Below, piece after piece: positions 10,218 through 57,528 of a stretch of 64,000 bases of DNA. A program made the position numbers and the translations under genes. The stretch lies in NCBI RefSeq assembly GCF_000336915.1, contig NZ_AOMD01000034.1, positions 28,504-92,503 of the forward strand, in the 5' to 3' direction. This DNA is from Halococcus saccharolyticus DSM 5350 (GTDB lineage Archaea > Halobacteriota > Halobacteria > Halobacteriales > Halococcaceae). Positions within the stretch are counted from its first letter, which is position 1. Each line of letters starts with the position of its first letter. The notes beneath the pieces were generated by a model. That model ran no database searches and was not told where the DNA came from. It saw only the letters and a list, made by a program, of their open reading frames with translations.

Positions 10218-10330
10218 CGGTGGCGCGCGGCTGCGCGGCTGCTCTGACGGAGCGCCCGCGCGACTCTCGCGCGAGGGATGACTGAGCGAGCGTAGCGAAC
10301 GAAGGAATCGGTTGGGGGAGGTGTGTGGCT
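10218..10330 (+). repeat. Intergenic repeat family B, copy 1
   Basis: GC-rich element containing CTCGCGCGAGGGATGA, then GAGCGAGCGTAGCGAACGAA, then ATCGGTTGGGGGAGGTGTG. The same blocks in the same order recur at 11238-11390 (inverted) and 45879-45968. It is non-coding and lies between divergent genes. Confidence 0.7.
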
Positions 10331-10367
10331 GTTGCGGTGCGGTGCTGAGGTGGTGGTGTCAGTAATC

Positions 10368-10470
10368 GAACCGCGAACGAGCCGCAGGCGAGTGAGCGGC
10401 TCTTTTTAGTCCAGGTTTTTCAAGGAGTGGTCGGCGAACGAAGTGAGTCGACCCGACGCAGAAAAAAGTG
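10368..10470 (+). repeat. Intergenic repeat family A, copy 1
   Basis: Core TTTTTAGTCCAGGTTTTT at 10403-10420, preceded by a GAGTGAGCGG block and followed by CAAGGAG, GCGAACGAAGTGAG and finally CCGACGCAGAAAAAAGTGG. It is shared with 20145-20227 and 36771-36874. A GCTGTTGCGGTGCGG block upstream (10329-10343) also precedes copy 3 (36607-36621). Confidence 0.75.
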
Positions 10471-10517
10471 GGTGTGTATCCCCAGAGTTATGCCGACAGC
10501 CGGCGAATCCGCGGCCA

Positions 10518-11138
10518 ATGGGAGTGCTCGAAGACAAGGCGCGTGCGCGGGTGTTCTACAAGTACCTCTCCCGCGTCTACGACGAGATCAACCCCTTCAT
10601 CTGGAACGAGTCGATGCGGGCCGACGCCATCGATTGGCTCGACCCTGCGCCCGACGATCGGGTGCTCGACGTGGGCTGTGGCACGGGCTTTGCCACCGAG
10701 GGCCTGCTCGAACGCACCGACAACGTCCATGGACTCGACCAGAGCAGCCACCAGCTCGAACGCGCCTGGGAAAAGTTCGGGAAGACCGACCAGGTCCGAT
10801 TTTATCGAGGCGACGCCGAGCGGCTCCCCTTCGCCGACGACGCCTTCGATGCGGTCTGGTCGTCGGGATCGATCGAGTACTGGCCCGATCCGGTCGCCAC
10901 CCTTCGGGAATTCTGTCGGGTGGTCAAGCCGGGCGGTAGCGTGCTCGTTGTCGGTCCTGATGCGCCGACATCGTCGGTCTTCGGCCGGGTCGCCGACGCG
11001 ATCATGCTGTTCTACGACGAGGACGAGGCCGACCGGATGTTCGACGCGGCGGGTTTCGAGGAATTCGAACACCACATCCAGCAGGCCCGTCCTGGCAGTC
11101 CACGAGCGATTACGACGGTCGCACACGTTCCTGAGTAG
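10518..11138 (+). CDS. VTE3/MenG-like quinone methyltransferase
   Basis: 206 residues; class I SAM-dependent methyltransferase. The start is the ATG at 10518 (MGVLEDKARARVFYKYLSRV); the 25 residues upstream look non-coding. Motif I is DVGCGTGFAT (51-60). Then come GLDQSSHQLE (72-81), GDAERLPF (98-105) and SGSIEYWPDP (116-125). This set closely matches plant VTE3, which methylates plastoquinone and tocopherol precursors, more than generic UbiE (from memory). In a haloarchaeon the likely substrate is demethylmenaquinone or another prenylated naphthoquinone, but the substrate is inference. It is monocistronic. Confidence 0.8.
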   Translation: MGVLEDKARARVFYKYLSRVYDEINPFIWNESMRADAIDWLDPAPDDRVLDVGCGTGFATEGLLERTDNVHGLDQSSHQLERAWEKFGKTDQVRFYRGDAERLPFADDAFDAVWSSGSIEYWPDPVATLREFCRVVKPGGSVLVVGPDAPTSSVFGRVADAIMLFYDEDEADRMFDAAGFEEFEHHIQQARPGSPRAITTVAHVPE

Positions 11139-11437
11139 GTGTTGTCGGTCGGATCCCGGTATGTCTCGTGATTCCGTGATGACAACTCCGGAGTCGGTTC
11201 GTCTGCATCTATTTTCGACACAAACGAGTGATCGCAGACCACACCCTCCCCAGCCGTTTCGCTCGCTTTGTTCACTCAGTCGCCCTCTCGCGCGAGTCGC
11301 GCGCCTCCGGCGCGCTCACGGGTCGCTTGCGCACCCCGTTCACATCCGAGGCGCTCACTTCGGTCGCGCCGCGCTCTGCTCCCGCGCGCCAGCGTCCCGG
11401 CCCGATGGTCTGGCTTTTCGATCGATGTCAGCCGATA
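11139..11437. other. Convergent intergenic region
   Basis: About 300 bp between the convergent ends of the methyltransferase and pilin genes. The right two thirds are an inverted copy of repeat family B. The rest shows no ORF with coding character and no obvious RNA gene. Confidence 0.6.
11238..11390 (-). repeat. Intergenic repeat family B, copy 2 (inverted)
   Basis: On the minus strand this reads GGCGCGCGGGAGCA, then GCGCGACTCGCGCGAG, then GAACAAAGCGAGCG, then CGGCTGGGGAGGGTGTGG. That is the same block order as copies 1 and 3, with extra GAGCG-type units in the middle. It is the longest copy in the window. Confidence 0.7.
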
Positions 11438-19103: not shown

Positions 19104-20096
19104 ATGATCTCGAAGGGCTGTGAACAGTGCGCCAAAGGCGGGAAGATGGTGCTGTTCGTCTACGGCTACTGCGATCAGCGTGACTGCTTTTACTGTCCGC
19201 TCGGCGAGAACCGCAAGAACGTCACTGACGTCTACGCCAACGAGCGTCAGGTCGAGGACGACTCGGACGTGATCGAGGAGGCCCATCGGATGGACGCCCT
19301 CGGAACCTCGATCACCGGCGGCGAGCCTCAGGAAGCGCTCGATCGGACCTGTCGCTACCTCTCGCTGCTGAAGGACGAGTTCGGCGAGGACCACCACACC
19401 CACCTCTACACCGGAATCACGGGCGGGCGCGAGAACATGCGCCGGCTCTCGGAAGCGGGCCTCGACGAGATCCGCTTTCACCCACCCTACGAACTGTGGG
19501 GCGACATGCACGGCACGGAGTGGGAGGACATCCTCTACATCGCACGCGAGGAAGGGCTGACGCCGGCGTTCGAGATTCCCGGCATCCGAGCCGAAACCGA
19601 GTTCCTCGACTTTCTCGACGAGGGTGCGGCGGACTTTTGTAATATCAACGAGTTCGAGATGTCCGACGGCAACGCCGAGCGGATGCAGGAGGCGGGCTTC
19701 GAACTCCGAGAGGGCCACATGAGCGCGGTCGAGGGGAGCCACGACGTGCTCGACGCGATGGGCGACCACGAGAAGGTCTACTACTGCACCAGCGTGTTCA
19801 AGGACGCCGCCCAGCACCGCAATCGACTGAAGCGGATGGCGAGAATCGTCGGGCGAGAGTTCGACGACGTGACCGACGACGGTACCCTCGTCTACGGCAA
19901 GATCTGGGAGCCCGTTACGCGCCTCGCCGAACTCGGCGTTCCCGAGGAGTTCTACACCGAGAAGACCGACCACGTCGAGCTCGCGTGGTGGCTCGCCGAG
20001 GAGATGGTCGACGAGGGAGACATCGGGAAAGGCGAGATCGTCGAGCAGTACCCGACTGCCGACGGCACGGTAGTCGAACGGACGCCCTTAGCGTAG
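19104..20096 (+). CDS. COG2108-like radical SAM protein
   Basis: 330 residues. The predicted [4Fe-4S]/SAM site is GYCDQRDCFYC, with cysteines at 23, 28 and 31. The spacing is CX4CX2C, not the common CX3CX2C. A further CxxC pair (C6, C9) precedes it. ITGGEPQEAL (about 70-79) is the GGE motif that contacts the SAM amino group. The sequence fits an archaeal family (COG2108, uncharacterised Fe-S oxidoreductases related to pyruvate formate-lyase activase). Substrate is unknown and the neighbours give no clue. A repeat family A element follows the stop. Confidence 0.8.
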   Translation: MISKGCEQCAKGGKMVLFVYGYCDQRDCFYCPLGENRKNVTDVYANERQVEDDSDVIEEAHRMDALGTSITGGEPQEALDRTCRYLSLLKDEFGEDHHTHLYTGITGGRENMRRLSEAGLDEIRFHPPYELWGDMHGTEWEDILYIAREEGLTPAFEIPGIRAETEFLDFLDEGAADFCNINEFEMSDGNAERMQEAGFELREGHMSAVEGSHDVLDAMGDHEKVYYCTSVFKDAAQHRNRLKRMARIVGREFDDVTDDGTLVYGKIWEPVTRLAELGVPEEFYTEKTDHVELAWWLAEEMVDEGDIGKGEIVEQYPTADGTVVERTPLA

Positions 20097-20144: not shown

Positions 20145-20227
20145 AACGAGCGGGTGTTTTCAATCCAGGTTTTTGCAAGGACTCTGAGCGAGCGCAGCGA
20201 GCGAACGGGGACGAAGTAAAATGGTGG
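20145..20227 (+). repeat. Intergenic repeat family A, copy 2
   Basis: GAACGAGCGGGTGTTTT, then a slightly diverged core ATCCAGGTTTTTGCAAGGA (20162-20180), then GAGCGCAGCGAGCGAACG and GACGAAGTAAAATGGTGG. It lies between the 3' ends of two convergent genes. The T runs could help end transcription of the radical SAM gene. Confidence 0.7.
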
Positions 20228-20236
20228 TGGTGCGGT

Positions 20237-22279
20237 TTACCGCCGTCTGACAGCGACGAGCGCGGCGGCCAGCAGCGCGATCACCGCAACGACGACCCCG
20301 AAGCCGGGGCCGGTCAGTCCGGAGGTCGCGCCCGTCAGCCCGAGATACTCGTTGGCCTGGCTGGTGTTCGCCGACGGCATCGTCCGGTTCCACGTGTTCG
20401 GCAGGTGGACCGACGTGTCCTCACCCACGTACCCGAGTTCGCGAACCTGTGACTCCGAGGCGTTCTCGGAGACAGCGCCCTCGACCCGGACGTAGGAGGT
20501 CGTCGTTCCGTTGTCGGTGCGGCCGACGACGCTCTGGACGTTCTGTCCGCCTTCCATGGTGACGAACGCGTCGCGAAGCGCCGTCATGTTCTCGAAGGCC
20601 GCACCGGTCTCCAGCTGCATCCGGCCATCCTCGACCGAGACATCCATCTGGGCCTTCCGGAAGCCCGCCTCGCGGAACGCCGTGACGTACTCACGAGTCT
20701 GGCCCGCCTGCGGGCCGGTGCTGCTGTTGAGCATCTGGTTCGTCGCCTGCTTGAGGAGGTTCTCGCCCGAGACCGAGACTGCGGCGGTCACGTTGACACG
20801 CTCGCCCTCGGTGGCGGCGTGGAGCTCGTATTCGAGATCACTGGTATCGATATCGCGGTCTTCCAGTTCGTCGACGTACGCTCCCCAGTTCTTGGTCCGG
20901 GACTGTGAGTCGAGGTCGACGCTGAGTGCCTGCGGGGAGTTCTTCGTGACGTTCGCGGTGAACGTGCTCGTCCGCGTGAGGTTCGCGGCCTGCTGGGCCT
21001 CGAACTGCTTGCGGAAGCGTTCGAGGCTCTGGTTGAACGACGCCGCGCTCGTGGCTGCGGCGTTCGTGGCTGCGGCGTTGGAGGGTGTCACATTCGACGT
21101 GGCTGCCGGCGTCGTTTCCGTGCTCGCGGGCATCGACCCGACGCCAGCCGTGTTCATCCCTGCCATGGTGCCCGCGTTGAGCGCTTGCATGTCGGTCGCT
21201 TCCGCGACATCGAGCGCCGCGAGCACGGCTCCGTCGTAGTTATCGAGGTCGGCGCTCATTCCGGCCTCGATCGACCCCTGCCGCTGGTCGTACCGGACCG
21301 AGAGCTCGTTCACCGTGAGATTTCGGAGGCGCTGGGAGACGTTGCGGGTCTCCGAGCGGTTGAGATCGACGTCTTCGGCCGACGTCAGCGACGACACCAG
21401 CTGGTCGGCGACGGCACGTTCGATCCCTTGGTAAGTGACCGAGTAATCGATGTCGAGCTGCGACCGGCCCGACTCACTCTGAGTAAACGAGTACGAGTCG
21501 ATCGTGAGATCGGCCGAACCGTTCATCGACTCGGCGAGCGCGACGTACTGCGACTCCAGCGTTCGCTTGGCCTGCTCGCGGGTTTCCCACTGTGACGCGG
21601 TGGCCCCGAGAACCGGCCGCTCCTGGGAAACGTTCAGCGTGTACGTGCCGTTGCCCTCGGTGATCTGGTAGGACTGGTGTTGGGGCTGCCCCAGCGGCTG
21701 GGTCAGCTGAGCGTTCGCCGAGAGATCGGCGTCGAACGTCGAGCCCGTGGTCGTGACGTCGCCGGTGATCCCCGCACGCTCGATGGGCACTGACCGGGCG
21801 ACGTTCTCACCGGTGACGGTCGCCGCGGCGGAGACGTCCGACCGCGCGTTCTCGTCGGTCCGCACGCCGGTGGCGTTCACCGAGAGGTTCGAGAGCGTCT
21901 CGGGCCGAGCCATTCCCAGCGTCCCGTTGCCGGTGACGTTCTCGCCGGTCATGACCGCCGTGACGTTGGCGGCGAGATCGTCCGAGCCCTCGATATCGCT
22001 CGCGACGAGCGCGTGGAACAGCTCCTCACTGACGTTCAGGCCGTAGTTCGCTTGCGTGCCGTTCGCCGCCTCCTCGTAGGCGAGGACGGCGTCACCGTTG
22101 TCCTCGACGTAGACGTCGTCGGCCGGTGGGAGATCGACACCCGTCTCGGCCGTGGCGTTCGTCCCGTTCGTGCCGCCTGCATCGCTCTGTGCGCCGACGA
22201 TTCCCCCACCGGCGACGACGGTGCTCAGCACGACCAGAACCGTGACGAGGACTGCCGCCGATCGGGAACGCGCTGTCAT
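20237..22279 (-). CDS. PGF-CTERM surface glycoprotein
   Basis: 680 residues. The signal peptide (about 1-31, ending in GIVGAQ) is followed by a long Asn/Thr/Ser-rich extracellular region with many N-glycosylation sites and two related halves, each with repeated Glu/Val/Ser beta segments. The C terminus is a Thr/Gly linker, then TGPGFGVVVAVIALL and a short Arg tail: the PGF-CTERM signal that archaeosortase A removes while attaching a lipid anchor. A Gly/Ala/Asn low-complexity stretch (about 370-405) divides the halves. It is likely an abundant cell-surface protein; its exact role is unknown. A possible leader ORF overlaps its start. Confidence 0.82.
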   Translation of the reverse strand: MTARSRSAAVLVTVLVVLSTVVAGGGIVGAQSDAGGTNGTNATAETGVDLPPADDVYVEDNGDAVLAYEEAANGTQANYGLNVSEELFHALVASDIEGSDDLAANVTAVMTGENVTGNGTLGMARPETLSNLSVNATGVRTDENARSDVSAAATVTGENVARSVPIERAGITGDVTTTGSTFDADLSANAQLTQPLGQPQHQSYQITEGNGTYTLNVSQERPVLGATASQWETREQAKRTLESQYVALAESMNGSADLTIDSYSFTQSESGRSQLDIDYSVTYQGIERAVADQLVSSLTSAEDVDLNRSETRNVSQRLRNLTVNELSVRYDQRQGSIEAGMSADLDNYDGAVLAALDVAEATDMQALNAGTMAGMNTAGVGSMPASTETTPAATSNVTPSNAAATNAAATSAASFNQSLERFRKQFEAQQAANLTRTSTFTANVTKNSPQALSVDLDSQSRTKNWGAYVDELEDRDIDTSDLEYELHAATEGERVNVTAAVSVSGENLLKQATNQMLNSSTGPQAGQTREYVTAFREAGFRKAQMDVSVEDGRMQLETGAAFENMTALRDAFVTMEGGQNVQSVVGRTDNGTTTSYVRVEGAVSENASESQVRELGYVGEDTSVHLPNTWNRTMPSANTSQANEYLGLTGATSGLTGPGFGVVVAVIALLAAALVAVRRR

Positions 22280-36591: not shown

Positions 36592-36770
36592 GACGTCGGT
36601 TGCGGGGCTGTTGCGGTGCGGGCCTGGAGGATGAAGGGCGAGAGAACGAACGGAGTGAGTGACCGAGGGCTTCGGCGGTTGCGGTATGGTTCCTGGTGGA
36701 TCGAGGGCGAGCGACCGCAGGGAGCGAGGGCTCGGGCGGTGCTGTGCGGTCGCGGAGAGCGCCAGTAGTT

Positions 36771-36874
36771 GTACCGCGAGCGAACGAAGTGAGCGAGCGG
36801 GTGTTTTTAGTCCAGGTTTTTACGAGGAGAGGTGCGCGAGCGAAGCGAGCACACCCGACGAAGTAAAAAAGTGG
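36771..36874 (+). repeat. Intergenic repeat family A, copy 3
   Basis: The best-preserved copy: GAGCGAACGAAGTGAGCGAG, then the core TTTTTAGTCCAGGTTTTT (36804-36821), then ACGAGGAG, GAGCGAAGCGAGC and CCGACGAAGTAAAAAAGTGG. It fills the gap between the map and carS 3' ends. Upstream (36600-36770) are further GAGCGACCG-type units and the GCTGTTGCGGTGCGG block. Confidence 0.8.
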
Positions 36875-36875
36875 T

Positions 36876-37421
36876 CTACCACGGCTCGCTTTTCAGTCCC
36901 ACTTGATAGGCGACCACGTTAGTGCCGACGTGGAGCAGCGGGGTGACGACGAGAACGACCGCGAGAACGGGCAGCGTGAACGTTGCGGTGAGCCACTCGA
37001 ACGCGCCGAGAGCGGTCAGGAGGAGTGCGCCGAGGACGAAATCGAACTGGTCGACGCCAGGGAAGGCCGCGCCGCGCTCCCGGCCGGTGCGACGCTTGAG
37101 GAAGGAAGCGGCTGCGTCGCCGACCATCGCGCCAATCGGTAGTGTGACCATCACGATAGGTGGGAACTCCGGGAGCGGGAGGCCAGTCGCCGCCGAGACC
37201 GGGGGTTCGATGGCGTTCAGCACGAGCGCGAGCGCGATCCCCGCGAGCGCGCCCGCGGCGGTCCCGCGCCACGTTTTGCCGTCGCCGAGCACGCGCGCGC
37301 CGCGCCACGTTCGCCCGGCGTCGATGGGGCGACCGCCGCCGACGAGGACGGCGGCGTTGTTCGGAACGTACGCCGGCAGCATCGCCCAGAACGCGACGGC
37401 GACGACTGCGACAGGGTCCAT
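36876..37421 (-). CDS. carS: CDP-archaeol synthase
   Basis: 181 residues with five membrane helices. Transfers CMP from CTP to unsaturated archaetidic acid, giving CDP-archaeol, the activated precursor of archaeal polar lipids. PAYVPNNAAVL near 16 and GDGKTWRGTAAG (about 46-57) plus GDAAASFLKRRTGRERG (about 100-116) are the catalytic signature regions. The protein ends four codons after VGLK; its stop abuts repeat A copy 3. Confidence 0.92.
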   Translation of the reverse strand: MDPVAVVAVAFWAMLPAYVPNNAAVLVGGGRPIDAGRTWRGARVLGDGKTWRGTAAGALAGIALALVLNAIEPPVSAATGLPLPEFPPIVMVTLPIGAMVGDAAASFLKRRTGRERGAAFPGVDQFDFVLGALLLTALGAFEWLTATFTLPVLAVVLVVTPLLHVGTNVVAYQVGLKSEPW

Positions 37422-45866: not shown

Positions 45867-45878
45867 CGCAGGACGGGT

Positions 45879-45968
45879 GGCGCGCGGGAGCACGCCGAAG
45901 GCGTGCGACTCGCGCGAGGGATGAGCGAGGAACGAAGTGACGAGCGAATCGGCTGGGGAAGGTGTGGC
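45879..45968 (+). repeat. Intergenic repeat family B, copy 3
   Basis: GGCGCGCGGGAGCACGCC, then GCGACTCGCGCGAGGGATGA, GCGAGGAACGAAGTGACGAG, then ATCGGCTGGGGAAGGTGTGG. It is the most compact copy and is used here to define the family. It lies between the acetamidase start and the methylthiotransferase end. Confidence 0.75.
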
Positions 45969-57456: not shown

Positions 57457-57528
57457 GCCTGGGTAGCTTAGCGGTAAAGCGCGTCCTTGGTAAGGACGAG
57501 ACCCCGGGTTCAAATCCCGGCCTAGGCT
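57457..57528 (+). tRNA. tRNA-Thr (anticodon GGU)
   Basis: 72 nt. The acceptor GCCTGGG pairs with CCTAGGC (one G-U). The D stem is GCTT/AAGC. The anticodon stem CGTCC/GGACG closes the loop TTGGTAA, anticodon GGU (reads ACC and ACU). The T arm is CCGGG-TTCAAAT-CCCGG. The discriminator is U, which is expected for archaeal Thr. No intron and no encoded CCA. Confidence 0.95.

Follow-up and report, generated by a model that had tools for sequence, protein, structure and literature searches.

Hairpin repeats at gene ends in Halococcus saccharolyticus: a possible two-sided terminator or boundary element of haloarchaea

In bacteria, bidirectional terminators let one element serve converging genes, and either strand reads A-run, hairpin, T-run, the T-run coming last. 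REP elements are extragenic, strand-asymmetric hairpins often located at gene ends. Archaeal termination has mostly been described in terms of simple T-runs. In Haloferax volcanii, T stretches form the principal motif of intergenic termination, and T5C gave 95% termination in a reporter (PMC7237163). Small mobile repeats are described in Haloquadratum, with inverted repeats, no target duplication and, in that account, an unknown mobiliser (PMC3119063).

Here, we describe a repeat family, A, which occurs with a second family, B, in a stretch of 64,000 nucleotides of Halococcus saccharolyticus DSM 5350 (contig NZ_AOMD01000034.1, positions 28,504 to 92,503; hereafter, the window). Judged from sequence, there is about an even chance that family A forms boundaries between the transcription units of haloarchaea, acting as a two-sided terminator and being spread and homogenised by recombination. 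Like bacterial bidirectional terminators, A would serve converging genes from one element; unlike them, it has its T-run before hairpin HP3 on each strand (T-run, hairpin, A-run). A shares extragenic hairpins, strand asymmetry and frequent gene-end placement with bacterial REP elements, but differs in hairpin design, in its T-runs and in the absence of a Y1/RAYT-type transposase from the genome. As for the H. volcanii T-stretch terminators, some of which have a hairpin upstream, a T-run follows soon after the gene end; however, those terminators are described in that report as T-runs, whereas A has T-runs on both strands flanking a hairpin with covarying arms, a fixed T5-N8-T5 spacing and multi-copy core classes (PMC7237163). 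Finally, A resembles the Haloquadratum small mobile repeats and PATEs in being short, non-coding and multi-copy, with inverted repeats or palindromes and no encoded transposase, but differs from that account in that clean insertion sites and an IS605 partner were not seen and orthologous gene-end positions have long been kept (PMC3119063).

None of the papers listed by literature searches was found to describe the A element, which does not prove that no such description exists. A structured, two-sided, order-wide element would add a new layer to archaeal termination and raises the question of what keeps so many copies similar when no transposase is known for them. Its classes, arms and hairpins could be exchanged singly in a laboratory haloarchaeon, which would make a clear test bed.

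Repeat copies in the window and among genomes

When A is oriented so that its core reads on the plus strand, its blocks are, in order, (often) HP1, TTCAC, HP2, 2-3 bases, T5-N8-T5, HP3, A5-A6, an arm and the gene end; the view of the earlier note that these are defined elements with a constant block order was borne out. Three cores were present on the plus strand of the window (starting at 10403, 20157 and 36804), with zero expected from dinucleotide shuffles; the earlier note had all three copies, but with starting points that precede the cores by 12 to 35 nt and fall within HP2 or close to it.

A copy 1 consists of HP2 (10371-10399; GCA triloop and two tandem G-A steps), an exact core, T5-AGTCCAGG-T5 (10403-10420), and, at 10421-10471, HP3, an A6 run (10462-10467) and the right arm AGTGG. 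A methyltransferase gene on the plus strand (10518-11138) lies downstream of it, and the copy has gene starts on both its sides and no gene end preceding it. In A copy 2, the core (20157-20174) carries two mismatches, TTTTCAATCCAGGTTTTT, and is followed at 20175-20226 by HP3 (inner GCA hairpin at 20185-20205), an A4 run (20218-20221) and the right arm. Its neighbours, according to Pfam matches of the flanking proteins, are a radical SAM gene and a minus-strand PGF-CTERM protein gene with its stop at 20237. A copy 3 comprises HP2 (36774-36800; GAA triloop, two tandem G-A steps), an exact core (36804-36821) and HP3 with an A6 run (36865-36870) and the right arm (36822-36874). It lies between a peptidase M24 gene and a minus-strand CDP-archaeol synthase gene with its stop at 36876. 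Upstream of this copy, two plus-strand copies of a third module, C, were observed at 36629-36679 (GGATGAAGGGC ... GGGCTTCGG) and 36698-36739 (GGATCGAGGGC ... GGGCTCGG).

Family B was found at all three places noted earlier (near 10218, 11238 and 45879): B copy 1, on the plus strand at about 10219-10329, lies directly 5' of A copy 1, so that the two families do occur side by side; B copy 2 (about 11239-11320) is inverted, on the minus strand downstream of the methyltransferase gene; and B copy 3 (45876-45967, plus strand) has minus-strand genes on either side and includes a hairpin with three tandem G-A steps at 45920-45950. Both families had also been described as threaded with GAGCGAACGAAGTGAGCG. 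As a literal unit this did not hold, the window having one exact match and five with 2-3 mismatches (0.34 expected); the kept feature is instead a hairpin, GCGA-N-C-GNA-G-N'-GAGC, with N and N' complementary in 134 of 139 units once copies close to a locus end had been set aside.

A search of the whole source genome (3.45 Mb, 36 contigs, 99.6% complete), as the earlier note had proposed, gave 23 copies of the exact core TTTTTAGTCCAGGTTTTT and 44 matches with at most three mismatches, versus 10 for the reversed control. The B signature was found 17 times here and 10 to 37 times in each of nine other genomes of the genus, versus 0 in all for the reversed control. The T5-N8-T5 form had 50 copies, with N8 being AGTCCAGG in 23, GGTCCAGA in 6, GATCCACA in 4, CATGAACG in 4 and other sequences in 13, and a scan of T5-N-T5 spacers of 3 to 16 gave exactly 8 in 50 of 68 matches; for these symmetric patterns the reversed control is the identical pattern, and hence uninformative. 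Both families are thus real, with counts far above those of shuffles and reversed controls, which rule out chance or low complexity as their source.

The sequence TTTTTRGTCCAGRTTTTT was present in all 10 genomes of the genus, with 6 to 34 copies each. Among 31 further genomes, 9 also had it, and the control gave no match in any of the 41. The architecture T5-N5-A-N2-T5, 20 to 45 bases, A5-NN-T was detected in 41 of the 59 genomes searched from the order, the reversed control matching none of the 59. A stricter search requiring the most frequent HP3 type gave matches in 9 of 24 genomes of the order and in none of 124 others from the phylum. Among the matches listed, Halococcus morrhuae and H. 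thailandensis each had many exact cores, and the dominant core class differed from genome to genome. Exact-core matches outside the haloarchaea (e.g. Mariniphaga, Staphylococcus, a Pelagibacteraceae cell) were attributed to chance, the DNA being AT-rich; where flanking sequence was inspected, the hairpins were missing. In the single-contig genome G004, no replichore bias of the copies was seen by eye. One element of that genome (G004:C1:2088635-2088702) had an HP3 with a long G-run followed by a C-run, perhaps an assembly fault.

Hairpins, paired arms and the strand that may fold

The hairpins of A are characterized by C(GNA)G triloops and tandem G-A mismatches, the G-A steps lying mostly in a pyrimidine-GA-purine setting. 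In 163 A copies, we counted 282 GNA-loop hairpins with at least five Watson-Crick pairs; ANG loops numbered 8, and the five mononucleotide shuffles gave 2 to 7. When loops of 3 to 6 bases competed in 162 copies, 344 triloops were obtained, 252 of them GNA closed by C-G or T-A, together with 40 tetraloops, none of which was GNRA (cores outside the N8 form were left out of both sets). A TNC loop closed by C-G was observed in 27 hairpins; this is the GNA loop in reverse orientation, as though the inner hairpin had been flipped.

In the right half of N8, bases 4-6 pair with the bases beyond A5 and two spacer positions. Among 195 A copies, the A-run was present in 191 and the arms paired exactly in 154, compared with a permutation mean of 102.6 and a maximum of 115. 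Copies close to the end of a locus, loci below 55% G+C and duplicates were dropped from these pairing counts and from the placement counts below. Outside the CCA class (n = 36), the arms were exactly paired in 30 copies and paired within one position in 32, with a permutation mean of 6.7 and a maximum of 15 for the latter; the four non-pairing copies were L187 (second site), L197, L206 and L207. Comparison of the copies indicates that the arms of A covary. The two spacer positions were usually purine mismatches on the plus strand, with GG facing AG in 93 of the 128 copies that were fully paired. Module C also changed in a paired manner: GAA occurred with CTTC in 63 cases and CGA with CTCG in 12, with no crossed combination and 6 other forms.

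On the terminator reading, B and C would be additional hairpin modules joined to the upstream side of A. Among 219 copies, the upstream module was B in 19, C in 86 and neither in 114. It is highly improbable that A encodes small RNAs, with a plus-strand HP1-HP2 ending in a terminator-like T-run: HP2 followed by T5 does resemble an intrinsic terminator, and many copies have B or C upstream, but the upstream module varies, no promoter has been demonstrated as common to the copies, and the only Rfam match in the window was a tRNA (57457-57528). Neither A nor B matched a known structured RNA in that scan, and a family modelled in Rfam was rejected as the identity of A.

Single mismatches in the stems of unique hairpins were G-T in 42 cases and A-C in 5 when read on the plus strand, which favours that strand as the one that folds. 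The loop type favours DNA, as the GNA loops resemble those of mini-hairpins such as d(GCGAAGC), which melts at 78 °C (PMC4686876). Folding energy did not single out the plus strand, since for A copy 3 the RNA z-scores were -2.1 (plus strand) and -3.1 (minus strand), and the DNA was unremarkable relative to shuffles (-0.6 and -1.1). We regard as unlikely the specific version in which the selected object would be a folded DNA strand of very stable mini-hairpins (GNA triloops, tandem G-A), forming a physical gene-end boundary that stops polymerases from both sides, is order-wide in haloarchaea and swaps hairpin modules and core classes wholesale while its arms stay complementary.

The same loops and G-A steps, the G-T excess and the stability of d(GCGAAGC) (PMC4686876) would also suit a DNA-structure site, whose plus strand would extrude GNA mini-hairpins bound by a putative protein for chromosome organisation, replication or recombination, gene ends being merely where this is harmless. 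This appears quite improbable: gene and tRNA ends lie within a few bases, tighter than gene avoidance requires, the T-run spacing is fixed, and copy 3 does not fold as DNA with a lower energy than shuffles.

Placement at gene ends and possible two-sided termination

Genes were called with a purpose-written codon-usage script rather than a standard gene finder. On the right (A5) side, of 175 elements with sufficient flank, 101 had the end of a coding-like opposite-strand gene, 49 had a gene start and 25 were assigned neither, the left side showing a mixed gene context. An opposite-strand stop lay 0-45 nt past the A-run in 115 of 187 elements, versus 23 of 935 random positions, and at 5-9 nt in 85 of those 115. 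As at archaeal terminators, a T-run stands just after the gene end on the coding strand in these 115 of 187 elements, the other 72 not being beside a gene end by this measure. A tRNA 3' end was located 7-8 nt from the A-run in L186 and L198. In L010, L120, L144, L002, L035 and L135, where the right side is a gene start, a CGAAAG-like, T/A-rich stretch past the arm looked archaeal promoter-like by eye.

In the window, two A copies do follow plus-strand genes, as the earlier note had pointed out (gene ends at 20096 and 36591 for the cores at 20157 and 36804), but the tighter link is with the opposite-strand gene ending on the other side, with stops about 62 nt (copy 2) and 54 nt (copy 3) past the core. 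The termination link at which that note hinted would fit this placement. The note was correct in regarding A and B as repeats, but missed the hairpins with covarying arms, the opposite-strand gene-end link and the order-wide spread.

A two-sided terminator or boundary appears to be the best reading because of the placement after genes and tRNAs, the T-runs facing both ways and the kept hairpins. Towards the gene, a T5/T6 run follows the stop codon, or the end of the tRNA, within a few nucleotides; on the far side, HP2 precedes T5-N8-T5, so that polymerases from that side would also meet a hairpin and T-runs; and HP3 stands between the T-runs, its closing arms covarying with the sequence of the gene end. 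RNA polymerase would terminate at the T-runs from both sides, like archaeal polymerases, and HP3 and HP2 may block read-through or protect ends. Several points argue against this reading. HP3 would lie beyond the T-run from either side and be absent from the terminated RNA, yet its structure is kept. Elements assigned between gene starts (24 of 175), or with a gene start on the right side (49 of 175), would have no gene end there to terminate. The loops look more like stable DNA mini-hairpins than RNA loops (252 GNA triloops; GNRA, 0 of 40). The folding energies of copy 3 are also unremarkable. Lastly, several genomes lack the element at sites occupied in others.

Orthologous sites and mobility

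The comparison of orthologous loci, also proposed earlier, revealed that occupancy differs from species to species within the genus. A T-run core was present at orthologous gene ends in 21 of 33 comparisons, a biased figure as loci were pre-chosen for holding a core; L007 versus L114, scored as lacking, had paired arms but no left T-run. At the CDP-archaeol synthase end, the element was present in 7 of 9 genomes and absent in G006 and G008 (a tenth, G007, ended at a contig end and was left out). The core classes at this site were AGTCCAGG, GGTGCAGA and AGCGTAGC, and every class came with the arm that matches it; G005 and G004 carried unlike HP3 types within one core class, and in G001 the left T-run was interrupted. 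The methyltransferase site was occupied in 5 of 10 genomes and empty in 5, with about 80 bp of other sequence, by eye, instead of the element. These comparisons indicate that positions are old, but that copies swap parts (core class, hairpin type) and are gained or lost.

The main rival to the terminator reading is mobility like that of small mobile repeats. A, with B and C, would then be a non-autonomous mobile or REP-like hairpin family inserting beside T-runs that happen to mark gene ends, its arms being short terminal inverted repeats. We consider this possible but rather unlikely. The 23 identical cores in one genome, the dominance of unlike core classes in unlike genomes (among the matches listed), the strand asymmetry of the hairpins, the half-occupied methyltransferase site and the Haloquadratum precedent (PMC3119063) are consistent with it. 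However, the methyltransferase site is not a clean insertion. Moreover, many element sites are common to several species and genera, and the arm varies from site to site along with the gene end. Both presence and absence were seen at two gene sites, where the empty forms have differing flanks. The arms around HP3 are inverted repeats, which a MITE would have at its ends, but are internal to a longer unit. No mobile enzyme was found nearby, as noted earlier: the nine flanking window proteins scanned all gave ordinary Pfam matches. The Y1 transposase (PF01797) had no match in the source genome, whereas 5 of 14 control genomes, including H. volcanii, had one; on this ground, IS200/IS605 or REP/RAYT-type mobilisation was rejected for this genome.

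On the boundary-element reading, copies would spread and stay alike through recombination and gene conversion, with modules B and C, HP3 types and N8 classes being exchanged and no dedicated transposase involved; gene conversion among copies is suggested by the swapping of core classes at fixed sites.

Tandem elements about 142 and 201 bases apart were observed in L194 and L199, those of L199 lying near a tRNA-Pro gene with apparent partial copies of the tRNA end. In L208 and L209, the core closely followed a plus-strand stop codon and was repeated along with a fragment of the gene end.
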